From Bacteroidota bacterium (GTDB lineage Bacteria > Bacteroidota > Ignavibacteria > UBA10030 > UBA6906), in contig JAUQWO010000075.1 in the NCBI GenBank assembly GCA_030835135.1, positions 1 to 64,000 of the forward strand: 64,000 bases of DNA, given 5' to 3'. The notes under the pieces were generated by a model. It saw nothing but the letters and a program-made list of their open reading frames with translations, searched no databases and was not told where the DNA came from. Below, in pieces: positions 2,894 through 21,604 of the stretch (its first letter is position 1; every line of letters starts with the position of its first letter). A program made the position numbers and the translations under genes.

Positions 2894-4057
2894 ATGAAGG
2901 TCAACCGCGTGGTCGTCTTCTTCTCCATCGTCTTTGCCGTCTACTTCGCCATCAACGCTTATGTGATCCACCGTGGGATGCAATGCTTCCCGGGGGGGGA
3001 CCCGATGCGCACGGTCATCCTCTGGACCGGTGTCTTCCTCGGGATCTCGTTCATTCTCGGACGCGTGCTGGAGAACTACTGGCTATCCCACGTCAGCGAC
3101 GTGATCGTGTGGATCGGATCGTTCTGGCTTGCCGCCCTCGTGTACTTCTTCTTCATCGTTCTTGTCGTCGACCTGGTGCGCCTCAGCACGGCGATCATAC
3201 CGTGGTTCCCCGGCGTGGTGACATCCGACCTGCATCGGTTCACGAGGTTCCTGTTCTGGGGTGCGTGTGCCGTCGTGGCGATCGTGCTGGTCGCCGGGCA
3301 CATCAATGCCCGGTCCCCCCGCATCCACAGGATCACGGTCTCCATCGCCAAGCCGGCAGACGGCTCCCGTTCGATCAGGGCGGCGCTTATCTCCGACATC
3401 CATCTCGGCACGATCGTCGGGCGTTCGCGCCTGCAGGGGATCGTTGACCACCTGCACGCGCTCGATCCCGACATCATCCTGCTTGCCGGCGACATCGTGG
3501 ACGAGGACCTTGCACCGGTGATCAAGGAGAACACCGGCGAGATCCTCCGCACGATCCACGCGCCCCTGGGCGTGTATGGCATCACCGGCAACCATGAATA
3601 CATCGGTGGCGCCGCGAAGGCCGTTGCGTATCTGGAGGAACACGGCATCACCATGCTGCGCGATACCTTCGTCGTGCTGCCGGACGGCGTGACGCTCGTC
3701 GGCCGGGAGGACCGGAGCAGCACACAGTTCGGTGGACAGCGGCGCAAGGACCTCCCGGCGCTGCTCGAGGGGGTGCGGCGCGACAGGCCGATCATCATGA
3801 TGGACCATCAACCGTTCGATCTGGACAGTGTCGTGGCGGCGGGGGTCGATCTTCAGGTGTCGGGTCACACGCACCACGGACAGCTCTGGCCGTTCAATCA
3901 TATCACCGACCTGGTCTACGAGCAGAGCTGGGGGTATCTCAGGAAGGGGGAGACCCACTTCTACGTATCCAGTGGGGTGGGGAGTTGGGGACCGCCGGTG
4001 CGTCTGGCGAACCGTCCCGAGATCGTGGAGATCACATTGACGTTCACGGGAGAGTGA
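2894..4057 (+). CDS. membrane-anchored calcineurin-like metallophosphoesterase (YkuE type)
   Basis: 387 aa. About four N-terminal TM helices (roughly 1-145) precede a metallophosphoesterase domain. All dinuclear metal-site motifs are visible: SDIHLG, GDIVDE, GNHEY, a His in DHQP, and GHTHHGQ. The family hydrolyses phosphodiester or phosphomonoester bonds, and YkuE-like members act at the cell envelope. The substrate cannot be read from sequence. Its stop codon overlaps the ATG of the sigma factor (TGATG), so the two are probably translated together. Confidence 0.88.
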   Translation: MKVNRVVVFFSIVFAVYFAINAYVIHRGMQCFPGGDPMRTVILWTGVFLGISFILGRVLENYWLSHVSDVIVWIGSFWLAALVYFFFIVLVVDLVRLSTAIIPWFPGVVTSDLHRFTRFLFWGACAVVAIVLVAGHINARSPRIHRITVSIAKPADGSRSIRAALISDIHLGTIVGRSRLQGIVDHLHALDPDIILLAGDIVDEDLAPVIKENTGEILRTIHAPLGVYGITGNHEYIGGAAKAVAYLEEHGITMLRDTFVVLPDGVTLVGREDRSSTQFGGQRRKDLPALLEGVRRDRPIIMMDHQPFDLDSVVAAGVDLQVSGHTHHGQLWPFNHITDLVYEQSWGYLRKGETHFYVSSGVGSWGPPVRLANRPEIVEITLTFTGE

Positions 4058-4635
4058 TGGACGCGCCGCGGGCGATCGATAGGCTGTCTGGTGGCGCGAT
4101 CGAACGCATGGTCCGGGGGATCCGTACCGGGGACCGTGCGGCATTCCGTGAGTTCTTCTTTGTGTTCCAGCCGGAGGTCTTCCGGTTCATCTTCCGGTTG
4201 ACGCGTGACCGTCAGATCGCCGAGGACCTGACACAGGACGCGTTCGTGCGGTTCTGGGAGGCACGCGAGCGCCTGGATGAGACCGGTTCTCCTGCAAGCT
4301 ATCTCTTTCGTATTGCCCGGAATCTGGTGGTGGACGAAGCGGAGCGGCGGAAACCATCGGTGGACATCGCCAGCGCGCCCGATGAGGTGCTCGTGCGGTA
4401 CTCCCGGGACCCTGAGGAGGAGTACGCACGGCGACTTGCGGCCGATGAGGTCCTGAACGCACTGACATACCTTCCTGAGCGGAGCCGGGTGGCGTTTGTT
4501 CTTAGCCGCTATCACGACATGAGTTACGACGAGATCGCCGCGACGATGCATATCTCCCTTCAGACCGTCAAGAATCAGGTCAGCCGGGCCCTGACCCTCC
4601 TGCGAAAACGACTTGCGGAGAACGACGGGGCATAG
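4057..4635 (+). CDS. ECF-type RNA polymerase sigma-70 factor
   Basis: 192 aa, the usual ECF length. Region 2 is recognisable by YLFRIARNLVVDEAERR and the upstream AEDLTQDAFVRFWE. Region 4 carries the helix-turn-helix (MSYDEIAATMHISLQTVKNQVSRAL). The start is set at the ATG overlapping the preceding stop, with GGGAGAG just upstream. The frame is open further back inside the phosphoesterase gene, but that part has no sigma homology. A FecR anti-sigma gene and an STN-containing TonB receptor follow, so this sigma probably answers a cell-surface signal and transcribes the receptor operon. It is separated from fecR by 195 bases. Confidence 0.92.
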   Translation: MDAPRAIDRLSGGAIERMVRGIRTGDRAAFREFFFVFQPEVFRFIFRLTRDRQIAEDLTQDAFVRFWEARERLDETGSPASYLFRIARNLVVDEAERRKPSVDIASAPDEVLVRYSRDPEEEYARRLAADEVLNALTYLPERSRVAFVLSRYHDMSYDEIAATMHISLQTVKNQVSRALTLLRKRLAENDGA

Positions 4636-4830
4636 TACTTTTTCCCCGCTCCGCCGTATTCCCTATGAGCGGCAGGTATCCTATACCGTTGGTCCTTTCC
4701 GGTCCGCCCACCTGTTCCTTACCCTGAATGTTCGCTGTACAGCATACCCGTGGAGCCCACAATGTTCTGGTGCGGCCTCCCGGCACCTTTTTGTTTCTGA
4801 TGTGACAACACAAGGCTCAACGCTCATCCC
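4636..4830. other. 195-base intergenic region between sigma and fecR
   Basis: No supported gene or hairpin was found. It would be the natural place for a promoter read by the adjacent ECF sigma factor, but without a second copy of a motif in the window I cannot name -35/-10 elements. A CTTTTTGTTTCTG stretch near 4788-4800 is the only A/T-rich patch. Confidence 0.5.
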
Positions 4831-5904
4831 ATGTCGTATCTTCCTCGTATGATCGATGCTTCATTCATGGTGAAGGTCCTCCGCGGCCACGCCGCCCAGG
4901 AAGAGCGCGAATTCCTCGATGCATGGCTGAAGGAATCGGATGCCCACCGGGAGGAGTTCGCGGCGGTCGTGGAGATTTGGGAACGGGCTGGCCGTGCCGG
5001 ATCGCCCGGTGTGCCCGACCCCTCGAAGCAGTGGGCCAGGATCGAAGCCGCGATCGGGTCCCGCGTGGAGATGTCCGGGCCGGTGCATATGGACCATCCA
5101 CCCGTCCGCATGACCGATCAGAGGCGACGGCCGATGAGGATGATGCGGACCATCGGGGCGGGGGCGTTGCTGCTCATAGCCATGGCCGGCCTGACCACAG
5201 GGATCTTCTGGATGGCGGGCCGGAACCATCCCCAGCCCACAGCATCGGAGCATCGCGACCGCGGGATCGGCTCCGAACTCGAATATGCGACGGCCAACGG
5301 ACGCCGCGCAATGATCCCCCTGCCCGACGGGACCGTCGTCCATCTCAATGCGGCAAGCCGGTTGACCGTTGATCCGGCGTTCGGCGGCGCCGAACGCCGC
5401 GTCACGCTCGAAGGTGAGGCGTACTTCGCCGTCGCGTCCGATCCCGCAAGACCCTTCCGGGTCTACACGGGCGCATCGTTCACGGAGGTGCGGGGGACGG
5501 AGTTCGGCGTGCGGTACCGCCGCGACAAGATCGATGTGGTCGTCTCGCGTGGCAAGGTCCGCTTCGTGAGCCGGAGCAAGGGCGGGTCCGTCGACCTTGA
5601 ACGGGGTGAAGGCGTGACGGCGACCTCCGCGGGGGAATTGTCGCGGCCCCACCGCGTGGATCTGCACGTGTCGCTTGCCTGGCGCGAGAACCGCTTGGCA
5701 TTCAAAAAGACACCGCTGGAAGACGTCATGACCGAGATCGAAGAAGTGTATGACGTGCACGTGGAATTCAGGAACACCGCGGCCCGCTCGCGGACGCTGA
5801 CCGGCACATTCTCCGTGGATGCGATCGATGTGGTCCTGTCCCAGATCGCGCTTGCGATGGATGTGTCGATCGACCGGAACGGAAGGACGGTGGTGGTGCG
5901 CTGA
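4831..5904 (+). CDS. FecR-family anti-sigma factor / sigma regulator
   Basis: 357 aa; the start could also be the in-frame ATG at 4849. An N-terminal cytoplasmic helical domain (DUF4880-like, about 1-75) would bind the sigma factor. One TM helix lies near residues 108-130. The periplasmic FecR domain follows, with the typical VRGTEFGVRYRRDKIDVVV and SRGKVRF segments. The C-terminal part (about 285-355, LEDVMTEIEEVYDVHVEF) is the STN-like domain that contacts the receptor's signalling domain in this family. Its TGA overlaps the ATG of the TonB receptor, so receptor and regulator are translationally coupled. Confidence 0.92.
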   Translation: MSYLPRMIDASFMVKVLRGHAAQEEREFLDAWLKESDAHREEFAAVVEIWERAGRAGSPGVPDPSKQWARIEAAIGSRVEMSGPVHMDHPPVRMTDQRRRPMRMMRTIGAGALLLIAMAGLTTGIFWMAGRNHPQPTASEHRDRGIGSELEYATANGRRAMIPLPDGTVVHLNAASRLTVDPAFGGAERRVTLEGEAYFAVASDPARPFRVYTGASFTEVRGTEFGVRYRRDKIDVVVSRGKVRFVSRSKGGSVDLERGEGVTATSAGELSRPHRVDLHVSLAWRENRLAFKKTPLEDVMTEIEEVYDVHVEFRNTAARSRTLTGTFSVDAIDVVLSQIALAMDVSIDRNGRTVVVR

Positions 5905-8888
5905 TGACCCTGCGGCCCCATATCTTCCGGACCCTGGCGATGGTCTGTCTCCTCCTTCCGGCCTCGCGCGTCCTGTCCCAGGAAGGCGGGAACGAACCGG
6001 TGATGCTGGAACCGGATGTGCTGCAATTCGATCCCGTGTCTGGATGGGACCAGATCACCGACGGTGGCACGTTCGCGAACGAAAAGATGGCGAAACCGAT
6101 CACGCTGGTGATGCGCGACAGGACATTGCGCGAGATCCTGGTGCGCGTTGGTGAACTCGCAGGGATCGAACTCGTCTTCAATGACGAACAGGTGGCCGTC
6201 CGCAGCGTGAGCATTGCCGCGGAACGCAAACCGGTGCAGCATGTGCTGGATGAACTCCTGCTCGGACGCGGCATCAATTACGTGGTCTCGGCGCGCGGAC
6301 AGGTGATCATCGGCAACGCACAGCGTGTCGCCGAGACCGTGGGTACCATCCGTGGCGTCGTGCTGGGGAAGAACAGCGAACCGCTCGTCGGTGCGCATGT
6401 CATGATCCGCGGAACGCGGATCGGTGCGTCCGCTGATGTTCAGGGAAAGTACAGCATACCGCGCCTGCAGCCCGGGCTGTACACTCTCGAGATCTCCTGC
6501 ATGGGCTTCGCGAAGATCTCCCGGCAGGTGATGGTGCGTGCCGGCGAGACCGTTGCGGCCGATGTCCTCATGGATGAGACATCGTTCATGATCGGCGCGA
6601 TCGAAGTCGTGGGTTCGAGTGGTGCGCTGCCGCGTGATGCACAGAGCAAGACCACCATTTCCAGCGCCGAGATCGAACATTTCCAGGCGTCCAGCATCGG
6701 TGACGTCCTCGACCTGGTGCCCGGTGTGCAGAAGACCGATAACCCCGGGCTCGGCAAGACGAGCCAGATCGCGCTGCGGGGACAGGAGGTGGATCCCCTG
6801 TCCGCGTTCGGTACACTGGTCATGGTGGATGGTATCCCGCTCTCGAACAATGCGAATCTCCAGTTCGAACAGTACACGAGTTCAAAGACGGGCGTGTCGA
6901 CCATGGGTGGGGGGGCGGATCTCCGGACGATCCCGGCGGATAACGTGGCATCGGTGGAGGTGGTGAGCGGCATGCCTTCCGTGCGCTACGGGGACATGAC
7001 CTCCGGGCTCATCAATGTGCAGACGAAGGTCGGTGCCCAACCCAACCGGCTGAAAGTGAAAAGTAACCCGGATACCCGCGAGGGCAACCTCGGGGGCGGA
7101 TTCGACCTCGGGACGGGTGGTCTGAGCTACAACTTCAATGCAGCACAGAGCGAGAGAGATGTTCGGAAGACCGGCGACGAATATGTCCGTCTCACCGGAC
7201 AGGTCGTGTACAATACCGCGATGCTCGGCGAAGCCCTGACGCTCAGCGCGAAGGTGCACGGGCAGAAGATCTTCGATGAGGAGGAACCCAGAGGAGATGT
7301 GTATCGCACCCGGAATTTCAACAGGGGACACACCATCGGACTCGCCACGTGGGGGACCTACGCGTTCGTTCCCGGGATCTCGGACCTGGATTTCAATACC
7401 TATCTCACGTACCGGAAAGAGGACAGCCATCGTTCGAAACTCGTCCAATCGGATGTCCGCGTGCTTCCCACCGGGGACACCATCTCGTCCTACATCGGGC
7501 AGGTGGATACACGTGGCATCGAGTGGACGGTCGGTGGACGGCTGGAATGGAGCAATACGTTCTTCACCGGCGATCTGATCCACAGGACCCTCGTCGGCAC
7601 CGACGTCCAGTACAATGCGAACACCGGTGAAGGGGTGCTCCTGGACACGGTCTTCAACTATTACGGCTCGTCATCGGGACGGCTCCCGTATACGTTCGAC
7701 AGCATCCCCGGCCAGCTCCTGGCCAGCCTCTATGCGGAGGACCGGATAGCGGGGCACTGGGGGGTCGATTTTGCGCTGACATTCGGCGTGCGCTATGAAA
7801 TGTACCGTCCGTTCGATCTCAGTCTCAAGGGGTTGTGGGGGGACGGCGATCTGGTACGCTCGCATCAGGGGTCGTTTTTCAACCCCCGCATGAGTCTCCT
7901 GTTGGGCTTCTCGGAAACGAATCAGCTGCGGCTCAGCGCCGGGTTCTCGTCGAAATCGCCTCCGATGAGCGCCATCTTTCCGCCGCCCGATGTCATGCGG
8001 TGGAGGAATCCCATCACCGGTACCGTGACCTATATCCGGCCCGACCTGTGGGTCCCGGACCTCAAAGGGTACCGGGAAGGTCAGATCGAGATGTCGTTCG
8101 ACCAGAAGCTCTTCGGTTCGGCCGGCGTGACGCTCACGGGCTATTATCGTGCGCGGGACCGCGAACCGGAATCGCAGTTGCTGCCTGTGTTCGCAACGGC
8201 CACGCAAGCGGGGAAGACCTACGCATACTATGTGGATACGTACGGCCTGTACGTCAATGATGGCTGGACGCTGAGCAAGGGGTTGGAGTTCACCTTGCGG
8301 ACGGGCAATATCCGGCCGCTCAACATGGAGTTCCGTGTCGTTGGGTCGTACAGCCGCAATGTGTTCGGGCGGGGTATGCAGACGTATAGTGACGCACCGG
8401 TGATCAGCAAGGGGCAGTACCCGAATGTGCCTGTTCCCGGTGCGGATACACTCATCGGGTGGTGGTATCCATCGCAGACGAAGTGGCGCGACCGTCTCCT
8501 TGTCAATTACTATCTCCGGTATACCGTGGCGCCGCTCGGGCTGTGGGCCACGGTGCGCGTGGAGCAGACCGTTTGGGAGCGGTACCAGGACATGAACATC
8601 CGGCCGGTGGATCTGGCATTGCTGACCCCGACCGAGCAGGTGCAGCGAGCGTTCGACGAGTCGATCAAACCCCGGTATCTGAAGTGGCTGCTCAATGTCA
8701 ATATCAGCAAATCATTGTTCCGGGGGGCGGAAGTGTCGTTCTACGTCAATAATATCCTGGACGATCCGGCGATCACGCGGTACATGCGTACGCCGACGGA
8801 GAGTGACGAGCAGACGCGCAACCCGGCGTTATTCTACGGTCTGGAATTCAGCATGGTGATCGACGAACTCTTCAGGAAGGGAGAGTAG
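5904..8888 (+). CDS. TonB-dependent outer-membrane receptor with STN signalling domain
   Basis: 994 aa. A signal peptide covers about 1-26. An STN (secretin/TonB short N-terminal) domain lies near 55-120, a carboxypeptidase-like regulatory beta-sandwich near 148-225 (IRGVVLGKNSEPLVGAHV), a plug near 245-375 (VPGVQKTDNPGLGKTSQIALRG) and a long beta-barrel to the C-terminus. Such receptors import large ligands using TonB energy. The STN domain signals ligand binding to FecR, as in FecA. It lies after sigma and fecR and before a lipoprotein and an ABC exporter, which is not a simple siderophore-uptake layout. The substrate is unknown. It is not SusC-like: no SusD partner follows. Confidence 0.92.
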   Translation: MTLRPHIFRTLAMVCLLLPASRVLSQEGGNEPVMLEPDVLQFDPVSGWDQITDGGTFANEKMAKPITLVMRDRTLREILVRVGELAGIELVFNDEQVAVRSVSIAAERKPVQHVLDELLLGRGINYVVSARGQVIIGNAQRVAETVGTIRGVVLGKNSEPLVGAHVMIRGTRIGASADVQGKYSIPRLQPGLYTLEISCMGFAKISRQVMVRAGETVAADVLMDETSFMIGAIEVVGSSGALPRDAQSKTTISSAEIEHFQASSIGDVLDLVPGVQKTDNPGLGKTSQIALRGQEVDPLSAFGTLVMVDGIPLSNNANLQFEQYTSSKTGVSTMGGGADLRTIPADNVASVEVVSGMPSVRYGDMTSGLINVQTKVGAQPNRLKVKSNPDTREGNLGGGFDLGTGGLSYNFNAAQSERDVRKTGDEYVRLTGQVVYNTAMLGEALTLSAKVHGQKIFDEEEPRGDVYRTRNFNRGHTIGLATWGTYAFVPGISDLDFNTYLTYRKEDSHRSKLVQSDVRVLPTGDTISSYIGQVDTRGIEWTVGGRLEWSNTFFTGDLIHRTLVGTDVQYNANTGEGVLLDTVFNYYGSSSGRLPYTFDSIPGQLLASLYAEDRIAGHWGVDFALTFGVRYEMYRPFDLSLKGLWGDGDLVRSHQGSFFNPRMSLLLGFSETNQLRLSAGFSSKSPPMSAIFPPPDVMRWRNPITGTVTYIRPDLWVPDLKGYREGQIEMSFDQKLFGSAGVTLTGYYRARDREPESQLLPVFATATQAGKTYAYYVDTYGLYVNDGWTLSKGLEFTLRTGNIRPLNMEFRVVGSYSRNVFGRGMQTYSDAPVISKGQYPNVPVPGADTLIGWWYPSQTKWRDRLLVNYYLRYTVAPLGLWATVRVEQTVWERYQDMNIRPVDLALLTPTEQVQRAFDESIKPRYLKWLLNVNISKSLFRGAEVSFYVNNILDDPAITRYMRTPTESDEQTRNPALFYGLEFSMVIDELFRKGE

Positions 8889-8892
8889 CGGC

Positions 8893-9987
8893 ATGCGAAC
8901 GGGATCATACATCGCCGGTCTGGTCTTCCTTCTTGCGGGGTGCGTGCAGGACCCTCCCGTCGGGGTGGATGGCAATGCAACGATCGTGCTGCAGGCCCTC
9001 TGGAATACGAGCGGGAACGATTCGCTACCGGCGTATGCGCCGCTGGCGGGTGCGAAAGTGGTGCTCCTCTCCGAATATGGCAGCATGGTCCGCAGCACCG
9101 ACGCTGCGGGCCGGCTGGTCCTTGACCATCTCCCGGCGGCAACGTACAGCATCTCCGTCCGCCGGGTCCATCCTCTGGATGCCGGGATCCAATTGGTCGG
9201 GTCCGCGGTGGGTGTGGCGCTCCGGCCAGGCCAGGCCAGTGCGGACACGATCGTCTCCAGGCCCATCTCCAGCACGGGGATCGCGATCAATGAGTTGTAT
9301 GTCGCCGGCCCGGTGAACAACATGTTCTTCTTCTACGATCAGTTCATCGAACTGTACAATGCCAGCGACAGTGTGCGGTATCTCGATGGGATGCTCGTTT
9401 CCCGTATGTCCGGCAATAATGAAGGCCTCGGCTCGGGAGCGGATGAGGGGAACGACGGCGATATCGATGGCGTCACCTACCTCTTCCGATTCCCCGGCTC
9501 ACCCGGCGGGGCCGAGTATCCCATCCGTCCGGGGCAGTTCGTGCTCCTGGCCGTCGATGCGGTGAACCACAAGTCGTTGTTCCCGAACAGCTACGATCTC
9601 TCGGGCGCGGACTGGGAATTCTACAATCAGTTCTCGCCGGAGGATGTGGACAATCCGCATGTGCCGAATCTCATCAACATGCGGTCGGACAAGACCACGG
9701 ACTTCCTGATCAATCTCACCTCGGATGTCATCCTCCTGGCGTCGGGCCGCGATACGGTGTGGTCCGATGGGGTCGATATCAGCACGGTGGTCGATGCCGT
9801 GGAGTACCAGTCGACACCACCCCCCGCGCTGCAGAAGACGCTTGACGCGCGCATCGACCGGGGAGTGGCCCTGAGTCCGCCGCGGTACAGTGGCCAGTCC
9901 ATGCAGCGCGCGGAGCCGGGCGGCGATTCGAACGATGCGACACTGGATTTTGTGATCATTCCGGCCGCGACGCCGGGACGTCAATGA
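8893..9987 (+). CDS. lipoprotein, DUF4876-like, with lamin-tail-like segment
   Basis: 364 aa. The N-terminus is a lipoprotein signal with lipobox LLAGC (Cys17), so it should be anchored in the outer membrane. Residues about 30-120 resemble a carboxypeptidase-regulatory-like sandwich (GAKVVLLSEYGSMVRSTDAAGRL). From about 137 onward the INELYVAGP and FIELYNASD motifs resemble a lamin-tail-type fold. By memory of the family this matches DUF4876, usually encoded beside TonB receptors in Bacteroidota. An AGGAAGGGAGA ribosome site precedes the ATG, and its stop overlaps the ATPase start. It may be a surface partner of the receptor; its function is not established. Confidence 0.7.
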   Translation: MRTGSYIAGLVFLLAGCVQDPPVGVDGNATIVLQALWNTSGNDSLPAYAPLAGAKVVLLSEYGSMVRSTDAAGRLVLDHLPAATYSISVRRVHPLDAGIQLVGSAVGVALRPGQASADTIVSRPISSTGIAINELYVAGPVNNMFFFYDQFIELYNASDSVRYLDGMLVSRMSGNNEGLGSGADEGNDGDIDGVTYLFRFPGSPGGAEYPIRPGQFVLLAVDAVNHKSLFPNSYDLSGADWEFYNQFSPEDVDNPHVPNLINMRSDKTTDFLINLTSDVILLASGRDTVWSDGVDISTVVDAVEYQSTPPPALQKTLDARIDRGVALSPPRYSGQSMQRAEPGGDSNDATLDFVIIPAATPGRQ

Positions 9988-10889
9988 CCGAAAGGAATGC
10001 CATGGAGTACGCGGTTGAATGCAGGGATCTGACGCACTACTACGGGAAGCGTCTGATCTTCGAGAACATGAATTTCAATGTGCGCCGCGGGAGCATCTTC
10101 GGGCTGCTCGGCAAGAACGGCACCGGGAAGACCACGACGATCAACATCCTGAACGGCTTCCTGACGCCGACCGGAGGGCAGTGCCTGGTGTTCGGCGAGG
10201 ACTCCCGGGCATTGACGCCCGCCACGAAGGCGCGGATGGGCTTCCTGATCGAGGGTCATGTGCAATATGCGTTCATGACCATCAGGCAGATCGAGAAGTT
10301 CTATTCCGCATTCTTCCCGCGCTGGAACAAGGCACCGTACTATGAACTGATGGCAAAGCTGGAGGTCACGGAGTCCCAGAAACTGTCGACCATGTCGTGC
10401 GGACAGCGGTCACAGGTGGCGCTGGGTCTCATCCTTGCACAGGACCCCGACCTGATGGTGCTGGATGACTATTCCATGGGTCTCGATGCGGGATACCGCC
10501 GGCTGTTCATCGACTACCTGCAGGAATATGCCCGCGCGGAAGGGAAGACCATCTTCATCACATCGCACATCATCCAGGACCTCGATGGGCTGATCGACGA
10601 TTGCGTGATCATCGACTACCGCAGCGTCCTGGTGACCATGCCCATCAGACAGTTCCAGTCCGAGTTCAAGCGGTTCACTTTCACATCGTCGGTCGCCGAT
10701 CTCAAGCTTCCGAAAGACGATGTGGTGAAGAACACGGAGTGCATCAAGCACCATGCGACGCTCTATTCCTTCAAGCCGCGGCAGGATGTGGAGGCGTACC
10801 TCCGGGGCAGGAACATCGGGTTCGAAGGGCTGAAGGAAGTGCCGATGTCGCTGGAGGATGCATTCATCGGGATCACGGGCAAGTATTAG
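9984..10889 (+). CDS. ABC transporter ATP-binding protein, atypical signature
   Basis: 301 aa. The Walker A motif GKNGTGKT is at 43-50. The signature is MSCGQ (137-141) instead of LSGGQ. Walker B ends in VLDD, so Asp162 stands where the catalytic Glu usually lies. The H-loop is in ITSH. This subfamily resembles YtrB/CcmA-type ATPases of small exporters. The start codon overlaps the lipoprotein stop (ATGA); an ATG at 10002 is an alternative. The permease follows after 102 bases. The Asp substitution suggests slow hydrolysis but does not show it. Confidence 0.88.
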   Translation: MTERNAMEYAVECRDLTHYYGKRLIFENMNFNVRRGSIFGLLGKNGTGKTTTINILNGFLTPTGGQCLVFGEDSRALTPATKARMGFLIEGHVQYAFMTIRQIEKFYSAFFPRWNKAPYYELMAKLEVTESQKLSTMSCGQRSQVALGLILAQDPDLMVLDDYSMGLDAGYRRLFIDYLQEYARAEGKTIFITSHIIQDLDGLIDDCVIIDYRSVLVTMPIRQFQSEFKRFTFTSSVADLKLPKDDVVKNTECIKHHATLYSFKPRQDVEAYLRGRNIGFEGLKEVPMSLEDAFIGITGKY

Positions 10890-10991
10890 CAGGGGCGGGG
10901 TCACGCAGGAGCGGGAGACGGGGAGAGGTTCACCAACGAACGCGACACACACCGGGGGATCACAGGTTCAGAATCGGGAAAGACACGAAGC

Positions 10992-11660
10992 ATGTTCACA
11001 GCGATTGCGTTCAAAGAGTGGTTGAAGATACGGTGGACGTTCCTTGCGATGGTCCTGGTCTGCGCGGGGATCACCGTGAATGTGGCATTGGATATCAGCC
11101 ATCTGATGACCCTGGAAAAGGCGACGAGCGTCTGGTCCTACGTCATCCTGATGCAATATCCGTTCTACAGCAGCTTCCGGTATCTGCCCCTGCTGGTGGG
11201 CGTCGCCGTTGCCGTGGCGCAGTTCGTGCCGGAGGTGCTCCAGGCACGCTTGAAACTCGCATTGCACCTTCCGTTGCGCGAGAACAGGGTCTTGCTCTGG
11301 ATGGTGACGTATGGTGGCGGGATGGTCCTGGCGTTGCTTCTCCTGACCCTCCTTGCCGCGGTGGGGGTGACGATCCGGTCGTTCCCGTCCGCAGTGGTTC
11401 GCTCCATGGTATGGACCATGGCCCCCTGGTTCGTTGCGGGCATCATCAGTTACTTCCTGACCGCCACGATCGTCGTTGAATCCCGGTGGCTCCGGCGCGT
11501 GTTCCTGATACTGCTGGCGTATGGGTTCCTGGACACATTGGTCCTGCACGTGGCGATCGAGGCCTATCGCCCGTCCCTGCTCTGGTTTGTCCTCCTCGGG
11601 CTCCTCACGACCACCGGTATCCTCGTATCCGGACACCGCTTCCGGAAGGGGGTACGATGA
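10992..11660 (+). CDS. ABC transporter permease subunit
   Basis: 222 aa, almost entirely hydrophobic with about six TM helices and no soluble domain. The N-terminal FKEWLKIRW amphipathic stretch is typical of ABC-2-like permeases. It pairs with the preceding ATPase and overlaps the next gene by 4 bases (ATGA). Two copies or a partner would be needed to make a transporter. The downstream membrane protein may be part of the same complex. Confidence 0.72.
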   Translation: MFTAIAFKEWLKIRWTFLAMVLVCAGITVNVALDISHLMTLEKATSVWSYVILMQYPFYSSFRYLPLLVGVAVAVAQFVPEVLQARLKLALHLPLRENRVLLWMVTYGGGMVLALLLLTLLAAVGVTIRSFPSAVVRSMVWTMAPWFVAGIISYFLTATIVVESRWLRRVFLILLAYGFLDTLVLHVAIEAYRPSLLWFVLLGLLTTTGILVSGHRFRKGVR

Positions 11661-12895
11661 AGACGATCCGTATCGCCCGCCTGAGCCTGGTCGTTCTGCT
11701 CATTCTCGTATTCGCCTGGACGCTCCCGTACTATTATTGGAAAGCATTTGACGTGAGCGTTCGCGCGCCCCGGGTGTCGTACAGCCCGGTGACGGAGCAG
11801 TTCCTGCTCCTGCAGCCCGAGAACAAGTCCGTCCGGTACGTCGATCTGCACGGGAAGGACTACACGCGTGAAGAGTATGAGCGGCTTCTTCCTCTGGCCA
11901 ACTACCGGCAGCTTGCCGCAACAGGACAGATGCCGGATTCGCTGCGCGGCGTGAAACTGGACCTGAAGGTCGTGGCATTGAACAACCTATTCCAGCGCAT
12001 CATGCCCGCCGACATCGGTATGCCACAGATCCCGCTCTTCCCGATGATCGAGTCGAAGTCCGGCCGCGTGAAGCTGGAGATGCCCGATGCGTTCTTCCGG
12101 ATCACGGACAGGATGGAGTTCATCGACGCGGCGACCAACACCGTGAACGAAGACCAGACGCGCTTGTTCACCGACACGCTGGCCGGGCGGGGGTTCCGGT
12201 TCCCGGCGAAACAGATCGCGGGCAACCCCACGACCCGGAAGGCGTTCGATGAAGGATACTTCGTTGTGGATGCCGCGGACAGGGTGTTCCACATCAAGAT
12301 GGTGCGCGGGAAGCCGTTCTGCAGGCTGACCGATATCCCGGCCACGCCGCAGATCATCCAGATGTTCATCGCCGAAACGGCGTTGCGCGAATTCTATGGG
12401 ATCGTCATCACCGCGGACAATGCCGTCCACCTGATCTCGTATGACAACTACCGCCTGGTCCGCCTGCCGCTCGAACGGTACGACCACCGGACCTGTGCGT
12501 TGTTCATCGGCGGGGATCTCTTCTTCCGGACCCTCACGGTGCAGGGCGACGGTTGGCTCGAAACGGTGGTGACCGATCGGGCGTATGCCGTGAAGGCGCG
12601 GTACAGCGATGCCTGGCCGACACGCGACGTTGCCGCTGCGGGACACGTGGCAGCCGCGCTCTTTCCGTTCGCGATCCACCTGGAAGACGCCGACTCGGCA
12701 TTCGTCAACCTGTACACGTCCGCCGGGAGTCTGCACGCGCTCTGGGTGATCGCGCTGTCCCTGATCGCGCTGCTGGTCAGCCTCCGGATCCGGCACCGGC
12801 AGGTGAAGGACCACGTGGCGGATCTGGTGCTCGTTGCTGTGTCGGGCATCTTCGGCTTGCTTGCTGTGCACATGATCCCCCCACCGGAAGAATAG
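11657..12895 (+). CDS. membrane-anchored periplasmic protein, DUF4857-like
   Basis: 412 aa. The start is taken at the ATG overlapping the permease stop, which gives a sensible N-terminal TM helix (about 7-27). A large periplasmic domain of about 330 residues follows. The C-terminus has two TM helices (about 358-376 and 390-407). The layout is like a transporter accessory subunit with a periplasmic sensor or coupling domain. From memory of the family it corresponds to DUF4857, found next to ABC genes in Bacteroidota. No catalytic motif is recognised. Confidence 0.7.
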   Translation: MKTIRIARLSLVVLLILVFAWTLPYYYWKAFDVSVRAPRVSYSPVTEQFLLLQPENKSVRYVDLHGKDYTREEYERLLPLANYRQLAATGQMPDSLRGVKLDLKVVALNNLFQRIMPADIGMPQIPLFPMIESKSGRVKLEMPDAFFRITDRMEFIDAATNTVNEDQTRLFTDTLAGRGFRFPAKQIAGNPTTRKAFDEGYFVVDAADRVFHIKMVRGKPFCRLTDIPATPQIIQMFIAETALREFYGIVITADNAVHLISYDNYRLVRLPLERYDHRTCALFIGGDLFFRTLTVQGDGWLETVVTDRAYAVKARYSDAWPTRDVAAAGHVAAALFPFAIHLEDADSAFVNLYTSAGSLHALWVIALSLIALLVSLRIRHRQVKDHVADLVLVAVSGIFGLLAVHMIPPPEE

Positions 12896-12901
12896 GGCAC
12901 G

Positions 12902-14347
12902 ATGCGGCGAGGTCTCCTCATAGGATGCATGCTGCTCGCGGCGGGCGCGCTGCAGGCGCAGGATCTCCGGCTGGAATCGCTGGGATCGATGCGGTACGGG
13001 TTCACTGACCCGCGTGCATCCCTGTCGCTCTATCGCTCCGGCCAGAACCCTGCAGGTCTGATCCAGGATGAACCCGTGGCCTGGTTGGCGTTCACGCCGC
13101 AGATCACGAATGCGTGGGGCTCGTTGCGCCGCGCCTTCACACCGGGTCACGTCACCATCTATGGGGCGGGGTTCGAGGGCGTCAAGCCCCTCGGGTCGCG
13201 CGGGACCTTCCGGGGGTCCAGTACGTATCTCGTGGAAGAACGCAGCAGCGTGTACCGCTCCCTGAAGCGCACGCCGTATGGCGGCGAAGCATACTTCTTC
13301 ACGGACACGACCACGGGTTCGTTCACGTACAAGGGGCCGTCGGTCGCATTCGCGTATGCCTATGAGATCACGCCCGGCCTTCAGGTCGGTGCCGATGTCG
13401 GTTATGCGCTGCAGGATGGTCTCAAGGACGTCTATACAACGGTGAAGAGCCTGTTCCGCCGCGTGCAGGGGACCGCGGGCATCGCCTACCGGGTCGATGA
13501 CGGCATTCACCTGGGCCTCACCGTGCATCCGTTCGATGAGCAGGAGCGGCTCGAAGCGAAGAGTGAAGAGGGACTCGATGCTGAAGTGTTCAATTTCCGG
13601 GGGGAGACCTTCGCCAAGCGGCGCGCAAAGAGCAGTGTTGCGCACACCGTCCGTCTGACAGGAGAAGAGTTCGGAGTGCAGGCAGCGTGGCTCTCACCGG
13701 TTGGCATGGAGGCGAGCATTGTGGGGATCGTCGGGGCTGCCAGGACGCGGGATCTCATCACGACCGACAGGGAAGAGGCGTTGGAGGATGGCTTTGCCCA
13801 GCGTTCGTGGTATGAAGCGGCGGCCCGTGTGCGGATGAGGATCACCCCGGACGCGACGATCGGGGTCGGCGTTACGCACCGGTCGCAGCGGGAGTGGTCC
13901 CGGTATCCGGCACTCGACCTGCTGCTCTGGGATGCAACGGGATCCGAAACGCTGCTTGGAGCGGGCGGCTCCTATGTGGCCGGCGGCGGGGTCCTCCTGG
14001 CGGCCGAGGCCGAGTATGCCTTCGTGCATACGGATTCATCGAAATTCATCGATAACCGGTTTGCCATCGTCCGCACCGGAGAATTCCGGGTGCGGACCGG
14101 CGTGGAGGTGCCGATCAGCGGGATCGGCACGCTCCGCGCCAGCTATGCCTTCGGCAGCGCAGGGGTGGATGTCCGGTCGGGCGGGAAAGACGTGACCGAA
14201 CAGACGGTCACGGCTGGCTTCGCCGTGCCCTTCGGATCGGGCGTGCACGTGGAAGGGCTGACGCGGTATTGCCACCGTCGCGTCAGCACCTCTGCACTGC
14301 GGGATGATCTCACGGTGGTCCTGTTGCTCCGGCTTGCAGAGCTGTAA
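12902..14347 (+). CDS. outer-membrane beta-barrel protein, DUF6850-like
   Basis: 481 aa. A cleavable signal peptide (about 1-20, ending LQAQ) is followed by alternating amphipathic beta-strands rich in Gly, Tyr and Thr up to the C-terminus, the look of a transmembrane barrel. It has no plug and no TonB box that I can see, so it is not a TonB receptor. It closes the gene run that begins with the ECF sigma factor and starts only 6 bases after the preceding stop. My DUF6850 assignment is from memory of the usual neighbourhood and is uncertain. Confidence 0.6.
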   Translation: MRRGLLIGCMLLAAGALQAQDLRLESLGSMRYGFTDPRASLSLYRSGQNPAGLIQDEPVAWLAFTPQITNAWGSLRRAFTPGHVTIYGAGFEGVKPLGSRGTFRGSSTYLVEERSSVYRSLKRTPYGGEAYFFTDTTTGSFTYKGPSVAFAYAYEITPGLQVGADVGYALQDGLKDVYTTVKSLFRRVQGTAGIAYRVDDGIHLGLTVHPFDEQERLEAKSEEGLDAEVFNFRGETFAKRRAKSSVAHTVRLTGEEFGVQAAWLSPVGMEASIVGIVGAARTRDLITTDREEALEDGFAQRSWYEAAARVRMRITPDATIGVGVTHRSQREWSRYPALDLLLWDATGSETLLGAGGSYVAGGGVLLAAEAEYAFVHTDSSKFIDNRFAIVRTGEFRVRTGVEVPISGIGTLRASYAFGSAGVDVRSGGKDVTEQTVTAGFAVPFGSGVHVEGLTRYCHRRVSTSALRDDLTVVLLLRLAEL

Positions 14348-14375: not shown

Positions 14376-16604
14376 ATGAAGAGGATACCCATTGCTGTGT
14401 CTGTCTTTGCGATACTCACCGCGCTGCTCGTGACGGCCGCCGGGGCACAGACCTGGAAGGTCGGACTCACGGCATCGTATCCGGGCATCAGTTTCAGCGA
14501 TGTGCAGTTCCTGTCGGCCACGACGGGATGGGTCGTCGGGTCCAAGGGGATCGTCCTGAAGACCACGGATGGTGGCGCAACCTGGAATGGCGCCACGAAC
14601 GACACCCTCGGTACACTCTCCTCTGTGCATTTTCGCTCCGCAACGGATGGGTACATCGGCGGTTCATCGCGCAAACTCTACACGACCACGGACGGTGGTT
14701 CGTCCTGGACGCGCATCCTGCTGAACGCCTTCGTCGCCGATACCGGTGCGGTGGTCCGTTCCGTCTATTTCTCCGACGCGAGCAAGGGCTGGATCCTTAC
14801 AACGCTCTCGAGCACCAACGGGCGGATCCTCCACACGACCGATGGTGGGACGACGTGGACGCAGGACCTGGTCGTGGCCGGGAGCAACATGATCGACATG
14901 TACTTCTCCGGCCCGGACCGCGGCGTTGCGGTCGGCAAGAGCACGGGAACCCTGTACTACACGAAGAACGGGACGACATGGACGGTTGCCCCGGCCCCCA
15001 CGCTGACCGGTGCCACCTACACCCGGTCCGATATCCGTGGCGTGTATATGGTCGATTCGTTGCTCGGCTACGCGGTCGGCTGGGGATCGCTGGTTGGCGC
15101 GCAGCCCAGCATCCAGCTGAAGACCACGAACGGTGGCGAGAGCTGGTCGCACCTCGCACAGCTCGAGGCGAACAAGATGTTCGACAACCTGTACGGCGTA
15201 TACTTCAAGAACGCTGCGAACGGGCTCTGTGTCGGTGGGGCATCCCGCGGATCCATCGCCGCGCGCACCGCGGACAGCGGGATGACCTGGACGCCGATCG
15301 ATCTGCCGTGCGGCGTGACGCTCAATGGCATTCACGGCAAGGGTGATACGGTCACTGTCACCGGATCCAGCGGCGTGATCTTCGTGAGCACCGACTTCGG
15401 AACCAGCTGGGACCTGAAGACCGGCATGGTGGGGAGCACGTTGTACGGTCTGCAGTTCGCCGGCGCGACGAACGGCTACGGTGCGGGTTTCGATGGCGTG
15501 TTCGTGAAGACCACGAACAGCGGGAATGCCTGGAAGGCGTCCTTCGCGTATGCGAACAGGCTCTCCCCGAATTTCAACGACCTGTATTTTGTGAACGGGA
15601 CAACCGGGCTTGCGGTCGGGTCGTACCGGATCGCACTCAAGACGACGAACGGCGGCACCAGCTGGACCCAGGTGATCGCCGATACCACCGCGGCGACGGT
15701 GACGCACTATGGTGCCTTCATGGTCGATGAGAATCTCGCGTTCGTGGTCGGACAGCTCAGCTCGTCCAATGGCGTGGTGTACAAGACCACCAATGGCGGC
15801 ACGTCCTGGACGATAAAATCCGCCGTGGCCGCCAAGGCCCTCCGCGGTGTTGCATTCGGCAGCAGCACCGTGGGTGCGGTCGTTGGCGCCGGACGCGTTG
15901 CAGCATATACGACCGATGGTGGCGGCACCTGGTCGGCAGCCACGTTCAACAACGTTCCGGCGGCACGGTCGGTATCGAACCTGCGCAAGGTAAGATTCCT
16001 GACCGCCACCACCGCCATCGCGGTCGGCGATACGATCATCCTGAAGTCCACCGACGGCGGCGCCAACTGGAATTACGTCACCAGTCCTGCCGCCATCGCG
16101 CTCAATGGCCTCTCGTTCCAGAATGCCACGACGGGCTATGCCGTGGGCAAGGGTCAGGTCCTGAAGACCACCGACGGCGGTGACACGTGGACGGCGGTGA
16201 CGGATGCGGCGTTGCATACCGACACGCAGAATGCCGTGGCCGTGGACGCCACCGGCAATCCCTGGGTCAGCGGCACGAGCGGACAACTGACGACGACCGC
16301 GACACTCTCGGCGGTGGAAACGGGCAGCGTGATCCCGGCCCGGTTCGCGCTCGACCAGAATTACCCGAACCCGTTCAACCCGTCCACCTCGGTGCGCTTC
16401 ACGCTGCCCCATGCAGCGAAGGTCGATCTGGTCATCTACAATATGCTCGGCCAGCGCGTTGCAGTCCCGATCAGTGGCACGATGTTCGAGGCGGGAAGCC
16501 ATACCGTGCGGTTCGATGCGCGTGGTCTTGCCACGGGCATCTATCTCTACCGGTTGACCGCCGGAACCTACACGGAAACCCGCAAGATGGCACTCGTCAG
16601 GTAG
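14376..16604 (+). CDS. secreted YCF48-like beta-propeller protein with T9SS C-terminal domain
   Basis: 742 aa. The start is set at the ATG behind an ideal AGGAGGT, which also gives a clear signal peptide (about 1-24). The body is built of repeats of about 45-60 residues, each with a K/H-TTDGG-x-x-W core (for example TTDGGATWN, TTDGGSSWT, TTNGGTSWT), matching YCF48/BNR-like propellers. The last ~85 residues form a type IX secretion sorting domain: a PNPFNPST motif, then VDLVIYNMLGQRV, then GIYLYRLTAG. The protein is probably exported and attached to the surface. Its role is unknown; adhesive or scaffold functions are possible. Confidence 0.88.
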   Translation: MKRIPIAVSVFAILTALLVTAAGAQTWKVGLTASYPGISFSDVQFLSATTGWVVGSKGIVLKTTDGGATWNGATNDTLGTLSSVHFRSATDGYIGGSSRKLYTTTDGGSSWTRILLNAFVADTGAVVRSVYFSDASKGWILTTLSSTNGRILHTTDGGTTWTQDLVVAGSNMIDMYFSGPDRGVAVGKSTGTLYYTKNGTTWTVAPAPTLTGATYTRSDIRGVYMVDSLLGYAVGWGSLVGAQPSIQLKTTNGGESWSHLAQLEANKMFDNLYGVYFKNAANGLCVGGASRGSIAARTADSGMTWTPIDLPCGVTLNGIHGKGDTVTVTGSSGVIFVSTDFGTSWDLKTGMVGSTLYGLQFAGATNGYGAGFDGVFVKTTNSGNAWKASFAYANRLSPNFNDLYFVNGTTGLAVGSYRIALKTTNGGTSWTQVIADTTAATVTHYGAFMVDENLAFVVGQLSSSNGVVYKTTNGGTSWTIKSAVAAKALRGVAFGSSTVGAVVGAGRVAAYTTDGGGTWSAATFNNVPAARSVSNLRKVRFLTATTAIAVGDTIILKSTDGGANWNYVTSPAAIALNGLSFQNATTGYAVGKGQVLKTTDGGDTWTAVTDAALHTDTQNAVAVDATGNPWVSGTSGQLTTTATLSAVETGSVIPARFALDQNYPNPFNPSTSVRFTLPHAAKVDLVIYNMLGQRVAVPISGTMFEAGSHTVRFDARGLATGIYLYRLTAGTYTETRKMALVR

Positions 16605-16627: not shown

Positions 16628-16659
16628 GCGGGGCACGGCGCGCGAGCGCAGTGCCCCGC
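16628..16659 (+). terminator. stem-loop between T9SS protein and M16 peptidase
   Basis: GCGGGGCAC (16628-16636) pairs perfectly with GTGCCCCGC (16651-16659) around a 14-base loop. No T tract follows, so it may be a weak or Rho-linked terminator, or an mRNA-stabilising hairpin. Confidence 0.4.
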
Positions 16660-16713: not shown

Positions 16714-19500
16714 ATGATGAAGCACAGCAGTGTTCTGGCAGCAGTGTGTCTGTTCGTCTCTCTGGCGTTCGCGGCACCCGCACCCTATGAAGAGGGAAAG
16801 GTCTATCGTCATCAACTGGACAATGGCCTGGTGGTCCTGACGATGGAGCGGCACATCGCCCCCCTGATCTACCATCAGCTCACCTATCGTGTCGGTTCGA
16901 GGAATGAGCGCCTCGGCATCACCGGAATATCGCATGTCGTGGAACACATGATGTTCAAAGGGACCCCGGCGTATGGCAAGGGGAAGGCCTCCCGCGCGAT
17001 CACCGACAATGCCGGCGTGTTCAATGCATTCACCGCGAACGACATGACCAGCTATTTCGAATATCTTCCGGCCAACCGCATCGGCCTGGCGATGGAGATC
17101 GAGGCGGACCGGATGCAGAACGCCATCTTCGACTCGGCCGAATTCACTTCCGAGATCGAAGTGATCAAGCAGGAACGGCGGATGCGCACGGAGAGCTCCG
17201 CGCAGGGCGTGATGGCAGAGGCGATGAACAGCGTGGCGTACCAGAGTCACCCCAACCGTGACCCGATCATCGGGTGGCCGGCGGACCTGAGCCGGATGAC
17301 CCGTGCAGACGCGTTCACGTACTACCGGACATTTTATACGCCGAACAATGCCTTCCTGGTCCTGGTGGGGGATTTTGCGACGGACGCGATCGTTGCGATG
17401 GCGAAGAAATACTACGGCAGGATCCCGCGCGGTCCGGCAGTACCGGCGATATGGGGTGTCGACCAGCCCCAGCGTGTCCGGAAGACCTTTACGCTGCAAC
17501 ACAGCGATGTTGCGTCACCATCGTTCCGGATGGCATTCCATGTCCCGACCTATGCCGACTCCGACGCGGCCGCGCTCCGCCTTGCGGGGATGATCCTCTG
17601 TGAGCGAAGCCGGGATGCGCGGCTGCACAAGCGCCTCATCGAACATGCGAAGATCGCCACCGGCGCCTCCGGCGGGATGGGGATGACGAAGGACCCGGGG
17701 CTCTTCTCGATCAGTGTCGGTGTCGTCCCGGACAGCAGTGTGGAGCGGGCCGAGGCCATGGTGTGGGAAGAGATCGGGCGCATGCAACAGGAGCCGGTGA
17801 CCGCACACGAACTGCAGAAGGTGAAGAACCGCTACCGGTTCACGCAGGTCACGGAGTATGTAAAGAACCCGGATATCGGCACGCGGATGAGCCGCTATGA
17901 GGCGTTCTTCGGATGGGACATGTACGATGCGTTCGATGCACGGATCAAGGGCGTGACCGCTTCCCGGATCCAGGATGTCATGACGAAGTACTTCCAGCCG
18001 AACCAGGTCACGGTCGGCTACCTCCAGCCCAAACCAGGCGGCAAGAAGCCCGCGAGGAAACCGGTGGAGAGCGGTGAAGACGGTGGGGATGCCGGTGCCC
18101 CGGACCCGGGTTGGCAGGAGGTCTGGAATTATCTCAACCCACCACCGGCGGTCCGGGTCGATGAGCCGCTTCCCGTGACGGACGACTTCGTCCGGCCCCG
18201 GCCGATCGCTCCCCGCGTCCACAGGATGCAGCTGGACAACGGGATCCCCGTGTACATCATCGAGAACCATCTCACGCCCGCGGTCTTCGTGGGTGGAATG
18301 ATCGAGACCGGGAATATTCCGGAAGCCAATCCCGGGGGCAAACCCGGCATCAGCACGCTGCTTGCCGATGTCATGAATCGCGGCACGGCAACGCGGACGT
18401 ATGAAGAACTTACCGAGCGCATGGCGTTCCTGCCGTTCAGCTTCACCGTGGCCGGTTCTTCGCGCAGCTTTTCGTTCCAGGGCTACGCCCTGAACGAGAA
18501 TGCAGCGGAAATGATGGAGACCGGGTATGACCTGATAACGCATCCGGGGCTGAGGGATGCCGATATCGAGAACCTGCGGCGCCGGCACATCATTGCGGCG
18601 CGCGACCGGTTCAAGAAGACCGGCATGGCGGCATTCTACCACATGTTCAATGCCCTGTTCGCGGACCATCCGTATGCTCAGACGAACAGTACCGAATCGT
18701 CGATCCGCAGCATCTCACGTGAAGACCTCGCGGCGCTCCACATGAAGTACTTCCGGCCTGACAGGACAACGCTTGTGGTCATGGGCGACATGCCGGCAGC
18801 CGCGCTCCGCACCATGGTGAACAAGGCCTTTGGCGCCTGGCAGTCCGCCGGTGCACCTCCTGCCGTGCATGCAATCCCCCCGGTGGCGGAGCTGGCCGGG
18901 CGTGAGATCACGGCATTCCCCGAGAAGGACTACACCGAATGTACGATCAATATCGGCTTTGCCCCATTGAATACCGTGGTGCCGGAGGAACGTGAGGGCA
19001 TCGCTATTCTCAATTCGATCCTTGCCTCGAGCGCGTTGACCTCCCGGGTCGGGGTGGAATTGCGCGACAAGCAGGGGCTCATCTATGGCCTGAAGAGTGA
19101 GGTCTGGTGTCCCTCGGGAACCATCGGATACTGGAAGATGAACACCAAGACCGGACCGAAGAATGTTGAACGGGTGATCACCGGGATCTTTGCCGAGATC
19201 AGGAAACTGTTCGCCGATGGATTGAAACCCGGGGAGATCGAAGCGGCCCGCAACCGGCAGCTCGGTCTCCTGCCCATGATCGTGGAGACACCGGATGATG
19301 TTGCCTCCCAGGTGTTCACGATGCTCCGTGACAAGCAGCCGCTGGACATGTTCGACCGGAAGGCGGACCGGTTGCAGGCGGTGACCGCGGCCGACCTGAT
19401 GCGTCTCGCGCGGAAATACCTCACGGTGGACCGGTTCAGGATCGTCGTGGACGGTCCGATCGACCAGGCCGCACTGGACGCGATCAAAGCCAAGTTGTGA
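16714..19500 (+). CDS. M16-family zinc metallopeptidase, two M16 halves fused
   Basis: 928 aa; the start is ATG at 16714 or 16717, both behind TGGAG and giving a signal peptide (VLAAVCLFVSLAFA). The N-terminal half has the inverted zinc motif HVVEH (His74, Glu77, His78) and a third ligand, Glu154, at the expected spacing. The C-terminal half begins near residue 505 and lacks HxxEH (STLLADV at the equivalent place), so it is the inactive partner, with the usual late motif GLIYGLKSEVW. One chain thus carries both lobes of the M16 clamshell, as in PqqL-like and pitrilysin-like enzymes. Likely periplasmic peptide degradation. Confidence 0.9.
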   Translation: MMKHSSVLAAVCLFVSLAFAAPAPYEEGKVYRHQLDNGLVVLTMERHIAPLIYHQLTYRVGSRNERLGITGISHVVEHMMFKGTPAYGKGKASRAITDNAGVFNAFTANDMTSYFEYLPANRIGLAMEIEADRMQNAIFDSAEFTSEIEVIKQERRMRTESSAQGVMAEAMNSVAYQSHPNRDPIIGWPADLSRMTRADAFTYYRTFYTPNNAFLVLVGDFATDAIVAMAKKYYGRIPRGPAVPAIWGVDQPQRVRKTFTLQHSDVASPSFRMAFHVPTYADSDAAALRLAGMILCERSRDARLHKRLIEHAKIATGASGGMGMTKDPGLFSISVGVVPDSSVERAEAMVWEEIGRMQQEPVTAHELQKVKNRYRFTQVTEYVKNPDIGTRMSRYEAFFGWDMYDAFDARIKGVTASRIQDVMTKYFQPNQVTVGYLQPKPGGKKPARKPVESGEDGGDAGAPDPGWQEVWNYLNPPPAVRVDEPLPVTDDFVRPRPIAPRVHRMQLDNGIPVYIIENHLTPAVFVGGMIETGNIPEANPGGKPGISTLLADVMNRGTATRTYEELTERMAFLPFSFTVAGSSRSFSFQGYALNENAAEMMETGYDLITHPGLRDADIENLRRRHIIAARDRFKKTGMAAFYHMFNALFADHPYAQTNSTESSIRSISREDLAALHMKYFRPDRTTLVVMGDMPAAALRTMVNKAFGAWQSAGAPPAVHAIPPVAELAGREITAFPEKDYTECTINIGFAPLNTVVPEEREGIAILNSILASSALTSRVGVELRDKQGLIYGLKSEVWCPSGTIGYWKMNTKTGPKNVERVITGIFAEIRKLFADGLKPGEIEAARNRQLGLLPMIVETPDDVASQVFTMLRDKQPLDMFDRKADRLQAVTAADLMRLARKYLTVDRFRIVVDGPIDQAALDAIKAKL

Positions 19501-21528: not shown

Positions 21529-21558
21529 GGGAGCGGCAACGGAGAGCGGCAACGGAGA

Positions 21559-21594
21559 ACGGGGGAGGGTGGCATACCACCCTCCCCCGTTTTT
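21559..21594 (+). terminator. intrinsic terminator after the ferredoxin gene
   Basis: A perfect 14-base-pair stem (arms 21559-21572 and 21577-21590) with loop CATA, followed by a T tract (21590-21594). It sits between the convergent ferredoxin gene and panD. Confidence 0.88.
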
Positions 21595-21604
21595 CATTTC
21601 ACCG

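Follow-up and report, generated by a model that had tools for sequence, protein, structure and literature searches.

A TonB receptor cluster with a NosY-like ABC permease and DUF4857 in Ignavibacteria, with a probable role in uptake of a chelated redox metal

Our analysis of a 64,000-nucleotide (nt) stretch of an Ignavibacteria genome (contig JAUQWO010000075.1, positions 1-64,000; hereafter the window, to which all gene coordinates refer) concerns a cluster in which an extracytoplasmic function (ECF) sigma factor, a FecR-type signal transducer and a TonB-dependent receptor are followed by a DUF4876 lipoprotein, an ATP-binding cassette (ABC) ATPase, a permease, a DUF4857 protein and a DUF6850 outer-membrane barrel (Table 1). 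The association of these families is beyond chance and recurs in 83 loci of several phyla. We favour, at a probability of roughly 55%, the explanation that the cluster serves surface-signalled, TonB-dependent uptake of a chelated redox metal, which is released by reduction and handled by a NosFY-type ABC/DUF4857 unit at the inner membrane. The metal would most likely be iron, with copper as the alternative. We infer the substrate, the reduction step, and the direction and coupling of the ABC unit; as to direction, a receiver that imports the metal, an ATP-driven metal transfer and the export of a chelator are all compatible.

An alignment search of genome contigs with DUF4857 gave 140 relatives. 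Eighty of their loci were fetched, three from an earlier search were added and the open reading frames were clustered; three genomes are sampled twice in this set, and the counts per family are lower bounds, many contigs being short. The hosts are Ignavibacteria, Calditrichota, Neomarinimicrobiota, Bacteroidales and a few Desulfobacterota and Verrucomicrobia. The distribution is patchy, with the family present in 5 of the 148 genomes of a phylum sample and in 6 of 60 relatives. Near DUF4857 lie the ATPase (77 loci), the permease (71), a TonB receptor (50), the DUF6850 barrel (47), DUF4876 (46), a BNR protein (32), a DUF4920-type protein (30), an M16 peptidase (18), FecR (13) and the sigma factor (9). 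A reductase-type partner is found in 45 loci, either PepSY_TM_like_2 (25) or a polyferredoxin (25), which are mostly alternatives since only five loci have both. The ATPase-permease-DUF4857 trio also lies near a TonB receptor (Pfam match) and TonB/ExbBD-like genes in an Opitutales locus (L057), near DUF4198 (Pfam match) and TonB/ExbBD-like genes in a deltaproteobacterial metagenome-assembled genome (MAG; L062), and before DUF4198-like and FeoB-like proteins in a Rhodospirillales MAG (L063, 8428-15935), the TonB/Exb genes of the first two and the FeoB and DUF4198 proteins of the third being assigned by reading the sequences, without a family search. The FeoB-like neighbour may be taken as a hint towards iron. 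In Desulfoluna (L055 and L073), a receptor-like protein near the trio matched no family.

The initial annotation, made from the window alone, had placed the eight genes in one unit, and the neighbourhood comparison agrees that they keep company in other genomes; that they form one functional complex is something we still infer. Could the receptor and the ABC genes instead be chance or regional neighbours, in separate operons under independent regulation? The ABC genes do form their own unit upstream of the sigma factor in two loci (L026 and L015), and some loci have no receptor nearby, in many cases owing to contig ends. Such an arrangement is nonetheless highly improbable in view of the recurrence across phyla, of a promoter-like element shared with the ABC genes (see below) and of the tight spacing: permease and DUF4857 are the closest pair of all (70 pairs, median gap -1), and in the window DUF4876 and the ATPase overlap by 4 bp. 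The remaining intervals in the window are -1 bp (FecR/receptor), 4 bp (receptor/DUF4876), -4 bp (permease/DUF4857) and 6 bp (DUF4857/DUF6850), with larger ones between sigma and FecR (195 bp) and between ATPase and permease (102 bp). The gene order had thus been read correctly, with the description as 4-base overlaps or short gaps failing for these last two intervals.

In the Ignavibacteria, the only hosts with sigma/FecR at a DUF4857 locus, a candidate promoter of the form ATAGTACTTTT-N12-(T)GTA lies between the sigma and FecR genes, at fixed spacing, in all 10 sigma-FecR loci. The exact pattern occurs twice in the whole genome of the window, here and at one site without a sigma/FecR neighbour, leaving the window copy as the sole match found at a regulatory position in that genome. 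The genome has two other FecR genes, and the one inspected has no match to the element within three mismatches. A weight matrix built from the ten sites and tested on held-out loci matched before FecR in L016, before the ATPase in L026 (77 bp) and L080 (119 bp), and near the BNR start in L026; in 665 kb of controls lacking sigma/FecR it gave eight weak matches, none of them before a cluster gene. In L006, a second M16 peptidase gene that runs divergently from FecR begins next to a copy of the element (16802-16828, + strand, 21 bits), which suggests that this peptidase may belong to the same regulon. We predict that the element is the promoter used by the sigma factor. Because it precedes FecR in 10 of 10 loci and the ABC genes in two, the receptor and the ABC unit are likely to be under common control and co-induced; L026 is the telling case, since its ABC genes form a separate unit and yet carry the element.

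The receptors point in the same direction as regards signalling. An STN domain was detected in 6 of the 11 receptors of FecR loci (FecR_C-type in 4 of the 11) and in none of the 29 from loci without FecR, the STN match of the window receptor itself being below the Pfam cut-off (E = 5.1e-5). The proposal that sigma/FecR control the cluster gains support for the window, where they adjoin the receptor and its promoter-like element, and does not extend to the family, in which they are an Ignavibacteria-specific addition; likewise, STN signalling to the ABC genes is retained as regulation, given that STN tracks FecR and that the element is common to both, without the idea that what is switched on is an exporter. 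Among the papers listed by a literature search on the TAGTACTTTT element, none was relevant. The same genome holds a second sigma/FecR/STN-receptor set (L112, on C18 at about 42581), which is divergently arranged and has no TAGTACTTTT element.

The nature of the ABC unit decides how the rest of the cluster is to be read. An AlphaFold2 model of the permease (predicted local distance difference test, pLDDT, 90.5) compared with the PDB by Foldseek gave NosY chains as all of its top seven matches, with probabilities of 0.98-1.00, TM scores of 0.50-0.58 and weak E-values of 0.08-0.34; 7 of 62 family members match ABC2_membrane_4, and a sequence search of the PDB with the permease found no match. 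On this model the fold class is clearly NosY-like. In the ATPase family, Asp replaces the catalytic Glu of Walker B in 71 of 71 members and SCGQ replaces SGGQ in 70 of 71; Walker A and the switch His are unaltered. The sequence is closer to ABCA-type chains than to NosF. The DUF4857 model (pLDDT 93) has an N-terminal transmembrane (TM) helix, a periplasmic beta-rich, propeller-like domain and C-terminal TM helices; Foldseek returned generic beta propellers alone (TM score < 0.3), and a sequence search of the PDB found no meaningful relative. A near-invariant K-P-F-D-E-G-Y-F motif is a candidate functional site, and DUF4857 is the putative inner-membrane partner of the ABC. The literature that we searched holds one paper on DUF4857, three on DUF4876 and none on DUF6850.

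The initial annotation had read these genes as an exporter spanning all layers of the envelope, with DUF6850 as its outer barrel. Neither part is supported: the permease is NosY-like, the catalytic site of the ATPase is altered family-wide, and the conserved neighbours include no gene recognised as coding for an adaptor, a TolC-type channel or product biosynthesis. Outside the genus of the window the usual order is receptor-DUF4876-DUF6850-ATPase-permease-DUF4857, and because of this order we assign the barrel to the receptor and lipoprotein. The window receptor has a plug and an adjacent lipoprotein gene, and DUF4876 is likely to be its surface partner. A narrower form of export, in which the ABC/DUF4857 unit would, once the metal has been released, return the emptied chelator or expel surplus chelate from the inner membrane or the periplasm, would fit the ABC-2/type-V fold, which is most often an exporter fold, and an ATPase whose nearest families are of the DrrA/PmtA/ABCA type; siderophores are known to be exported from the periplasm by a different transporter (PMC10760861). 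We nevertheless consider it unlikely, given that no export partner or biosynthesis gene was recognised in the conserved neighbourhood, the Asp at the catalytic position and a DUF4857 without adaptor features.

What else the cluster encodes would fit redox chemistry on a metal. The membrane part of the window polyferredoxin matches NosR/NapH/CcoG-type models. No PepSY protein was found in the window cluster, the polyferredoxin standing in its place; in the relatives that have PepSY, His12 and His126 are invariant, and those PepSY_TM proteins that have been characterised reduce ferrisiderophores in a haem-dependent way (PMC13038864). The sole PepSY_TM_like_2 of the window genome lies on C20, and a link between it and the cluster was rejected, its neighbours showing no similarity to the cluster families. 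A small DUF4920-family protein of the OB (oligonucleotide/oligosaccharide-binding) type, with Cys and Gly invariant near a second Cys (e.g. L088, 11239-11787; L007, 17659-18123), lies between DUF4857 and PepSY in relatives and is a candidate metal carrier. With respect to the identity of the metal, the B. thetaiotaomicron set BT3625-33, which contains DUF4857, an ABC ATPase, two PepSY, two DUF4876 and a receptor, was induced 37-128-fold in RNA-seq upon iron depletion with 150 uM dipyridyl, and PG1019-22 of P. gingivalis (DUF4876 and receptor) was induced 21-215-fold by 150 uM dipyridyl (PMC10434189).

These redox partners would also suit a unit that moves nothing and instead, like NosDFY or CcmAB, turns the hydrolysis of ATP into conformational work for loading or stripping metal, probably copper, on a periplasmic partner (the DUF4920 protein or the HMA-like region of the polyferredoxin), in the service of assembling a metalloenzyme of the periplasm. 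The NosY-like permease, the NosR/NapH/CcoG-like polyferredoxin with its HMA-like tail and the DUF4920-family protein with its invariant Cys in 30 of 83 loci are all in keeping with this, and TonB receptors for copper that come with a PepSY reductase are known (PMC12914433, PMC13038864). On the other hand, no metalloenzyme gene lies in the conserved neighbourhood, Desulfoluna and Bacteroidales, which both have such loci, are generally regarded as strict anaerobes, it was an iron chelator that caused the published induction, and NosZ and DUF4857 do not track, which makes metalloenzyme assembly rather unlikely. A role as NosZ accessory was rejected, since NosZ, with fragments included, occurs in 2 of 6 relatives that have DUF4857 and in 6 of 54 that lack it. 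A full-length clade II NosZ is encoded elsewhere in the genome (C72:94076-95794, 907 bits). Ferredoxin piracy by a Fus-type TonB receptor with an M16 protease was likewise rejected as the core function, the M16 peptidase being present in 18 of the 83 loci only.

Several points weigh against our preferred explanation, that of reductive metal uptake. We know of no ABC-2/NosY-fold transporter that imports a metal. Dipyridyl, which binds further divalent metals, is not strictly iron-specific. The polyferredoxin relative CcoG reduces Cu(II) and not Fe(III) (PMC7558416), which would favour copper; it is for these last two reasons that copper is kept beside iron. The link from the window cluster to the B. 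thetaiotaomicron and P. gingivalis sets goes through family names only, and the substrate in Ignavibacteria is deduced indirectly. Finally, the E-values to NosY are weak, the fold of DUF4857 has no close solved relative, and co-transcription across the 109 bp that separate the BNR gene from the M16 gene is presumed.

If reductive metal uptake is nevertheless the correct explanation, the ligand would be captured at the cell surface by the DUF4876 lipoprotein and the secreted BNR protein together with the DUF6850 barrel, then drawn through the outer membrane by the receptor, whose STN domain would signal to FecR and release the sigma factor; this would then fire the promoter-like element at 4632 and induce the genes from FecR through the polyferredoxin. 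Metal that reaches the periplasm on a protein or peptide carrier may be liberated there by the M16 peptidase, and it would be reduced by the polyferredoxin; in relatives, this reduction would fall to the PepSY_TM reductase and the DUF4920 OB-type protein. The NosFY-type ABC and the membrane-anchored DUF4857 domain would use ATP to accept the freed metal from the periplasm and either move it through the inner membrane or pass it to a carrier.

Such a scheme has parallels in known systems. The ECF sigma factor, the FecR with PF04773 and FecR_C, and the STN-type receptor are adjacent as in the ferric citrate system FecIRA, and the receptor signalling domain is likewise present only with FecR; FecA, however, is followed by the binding-protein-dependent importer FecBCDE, where here we find a NosFY-type ABC, DUF4857 and redox genes. 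The logic of receptor, surface lipoprotein and inner-membrane reductase, with PepSY in relatives, is that of XusABC of Bacteroides (PMC13142918), and a Bacteroides set with the same families as ours is iron-responsive (PMC10434189). The lipoprotein here is DUF4876 and not DUF4374, and there is a dedicated ABC/DUF4857 unit, whereas the inner-membrane iron transporter of Xus is described as unknown (PMC13142918). NosDFY with NosR shares the permease fold, an ABC ATPase and a membrane polyferredoxin partner, and differs in that the present cluster has DUF4857, Asp for the ATPase Glu, a link to a TonB receptor and none to NosZ; no NosD (beta-helix), NosL or NosZ was found among the family-searched conserved neighbours. 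The copper TonB receptor CrtA of Bordetella with its PepSY_TM partner CrpH (PMC12914433, PMC13038864), considered together with CcoG, offers a receptor with a periplasmic metal-reductase-type partner, in a three-gene cruR-crtA-crpH operon that lacks ABC/DUF4857 and sigma/FecR.

Table 1. Genes and signals of the cluster in the window.
Feature	Position	Strand	Evidence or remark
ECF sigma factor, FecI-like	4057..4635	+	TIGR02985 (Bacteroidota-type)
Putative promoter of the sigma factor, ATAGTACTTTT-N12-(T)GTA, serving FecR and the genes after it	4632..4658	+	10/10 sigma-FecR loci
FecR-type anti-sigma factor/signal transducer, one TM	4831..5904	+	PF04773 1.5e-22, FecR_C 2e-13
TonB-dependent receptor: N-terminal STN signalling domain, CarboxypepD domain, plug	5904..8888	+	
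DUF4876 lipoprotein (LTD-like)	8893..9987	+	PF16215 2.6e-15; lipobox LAGC
ABC ATPase, Asp replacing Walker-B catalytic Glu, SCGQ signature	9984..10889	+	
Six-TM ABC-2/NosY-like permease	10992..11660	+	ABC2_membrane_4 in family members; AlphaFold2 model; Foldseek
DUF4857, three TM segments	11657..12895	+	PF16149 3.2e-87
DUF6850 outer-membrane beta barrel, no plug	12902..14347	+	PF21012 8e-9
Secreted BNR/Ycf48-like repeat protein, type IX secretion system (T9SS) C-terminal sorting domain	14376..16604	+	PF14870 1.3e-46, Por_Secre_tail
Exported M16 peptidase, HVVEH zinc motif in first half	16714..19500	+	
Membrane polyferredoxin (NapH/NosR/CcoG superfamily)	19561..21528	+	two CxxxCP motifs, two 4Fe-4S sites, C-terminal HMA-like region
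Intrinsic terminator, 19-bp hairpin and U run; end of unit	21554..21595	+	z = -7.4

The three DUF names given in the initial annotation all proved correct by Pfam, with scores over the curated cut-offs (bits/cut-off: DUF4857 292.6/25, DUF4876 57.4/27.9, DUF6850 35.6/27), and each family has one copy in the whole genome, at this cluster. The unit does not end at 14347, where the eight-gene core does: three more genes on the same strand (BNR/T9SS, M16 and polyferredoxin) extend it to 21528, before the terminator. Scans for sigma-70 promoters and terminators gave no more matches than in shuffled sequence, the terminator scan having overlooked the real hairpin at 21554-21595. At the other end, the ATG of the sigma gene overlaps the stop codon of an upstream metallophosphatase gene by 1 base. 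A strong GC inverted repeat without a T run (GCGGGGCAC...GTGCCCCGC, 16628-16659), inside the BNR-M16 gap, may be where the mRNA is processed or where transcription partly ends.

TonB receptors are well understood, and the cluster offers a concrete candidate for the step that follows metal release in reductive systems such as Xus. This candidate is conserved in several phyla and, by family content, also occurs in a gut Bacteroides that is amenable to genetics (BT3625-33). How an ABC that apparently has a single ATPase works with an invariant Asp at its catalytic position is a mechanistic question in itself, and the promoter-like element can serve as a marker in the search for the regulon of uncultured Ignavibacteria. 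Tentatively, TonB receptors might have in the DUF4857 complex an inner-membrane partner of a new class, consisting of an importing NosY-fold ABC, a membrane-anchored propeller-like receiver and an ATPase site altered throughout the family; if this is true, it would fill the inner-membrane step of Xus-type iron piracy, after reductive release of the metal.

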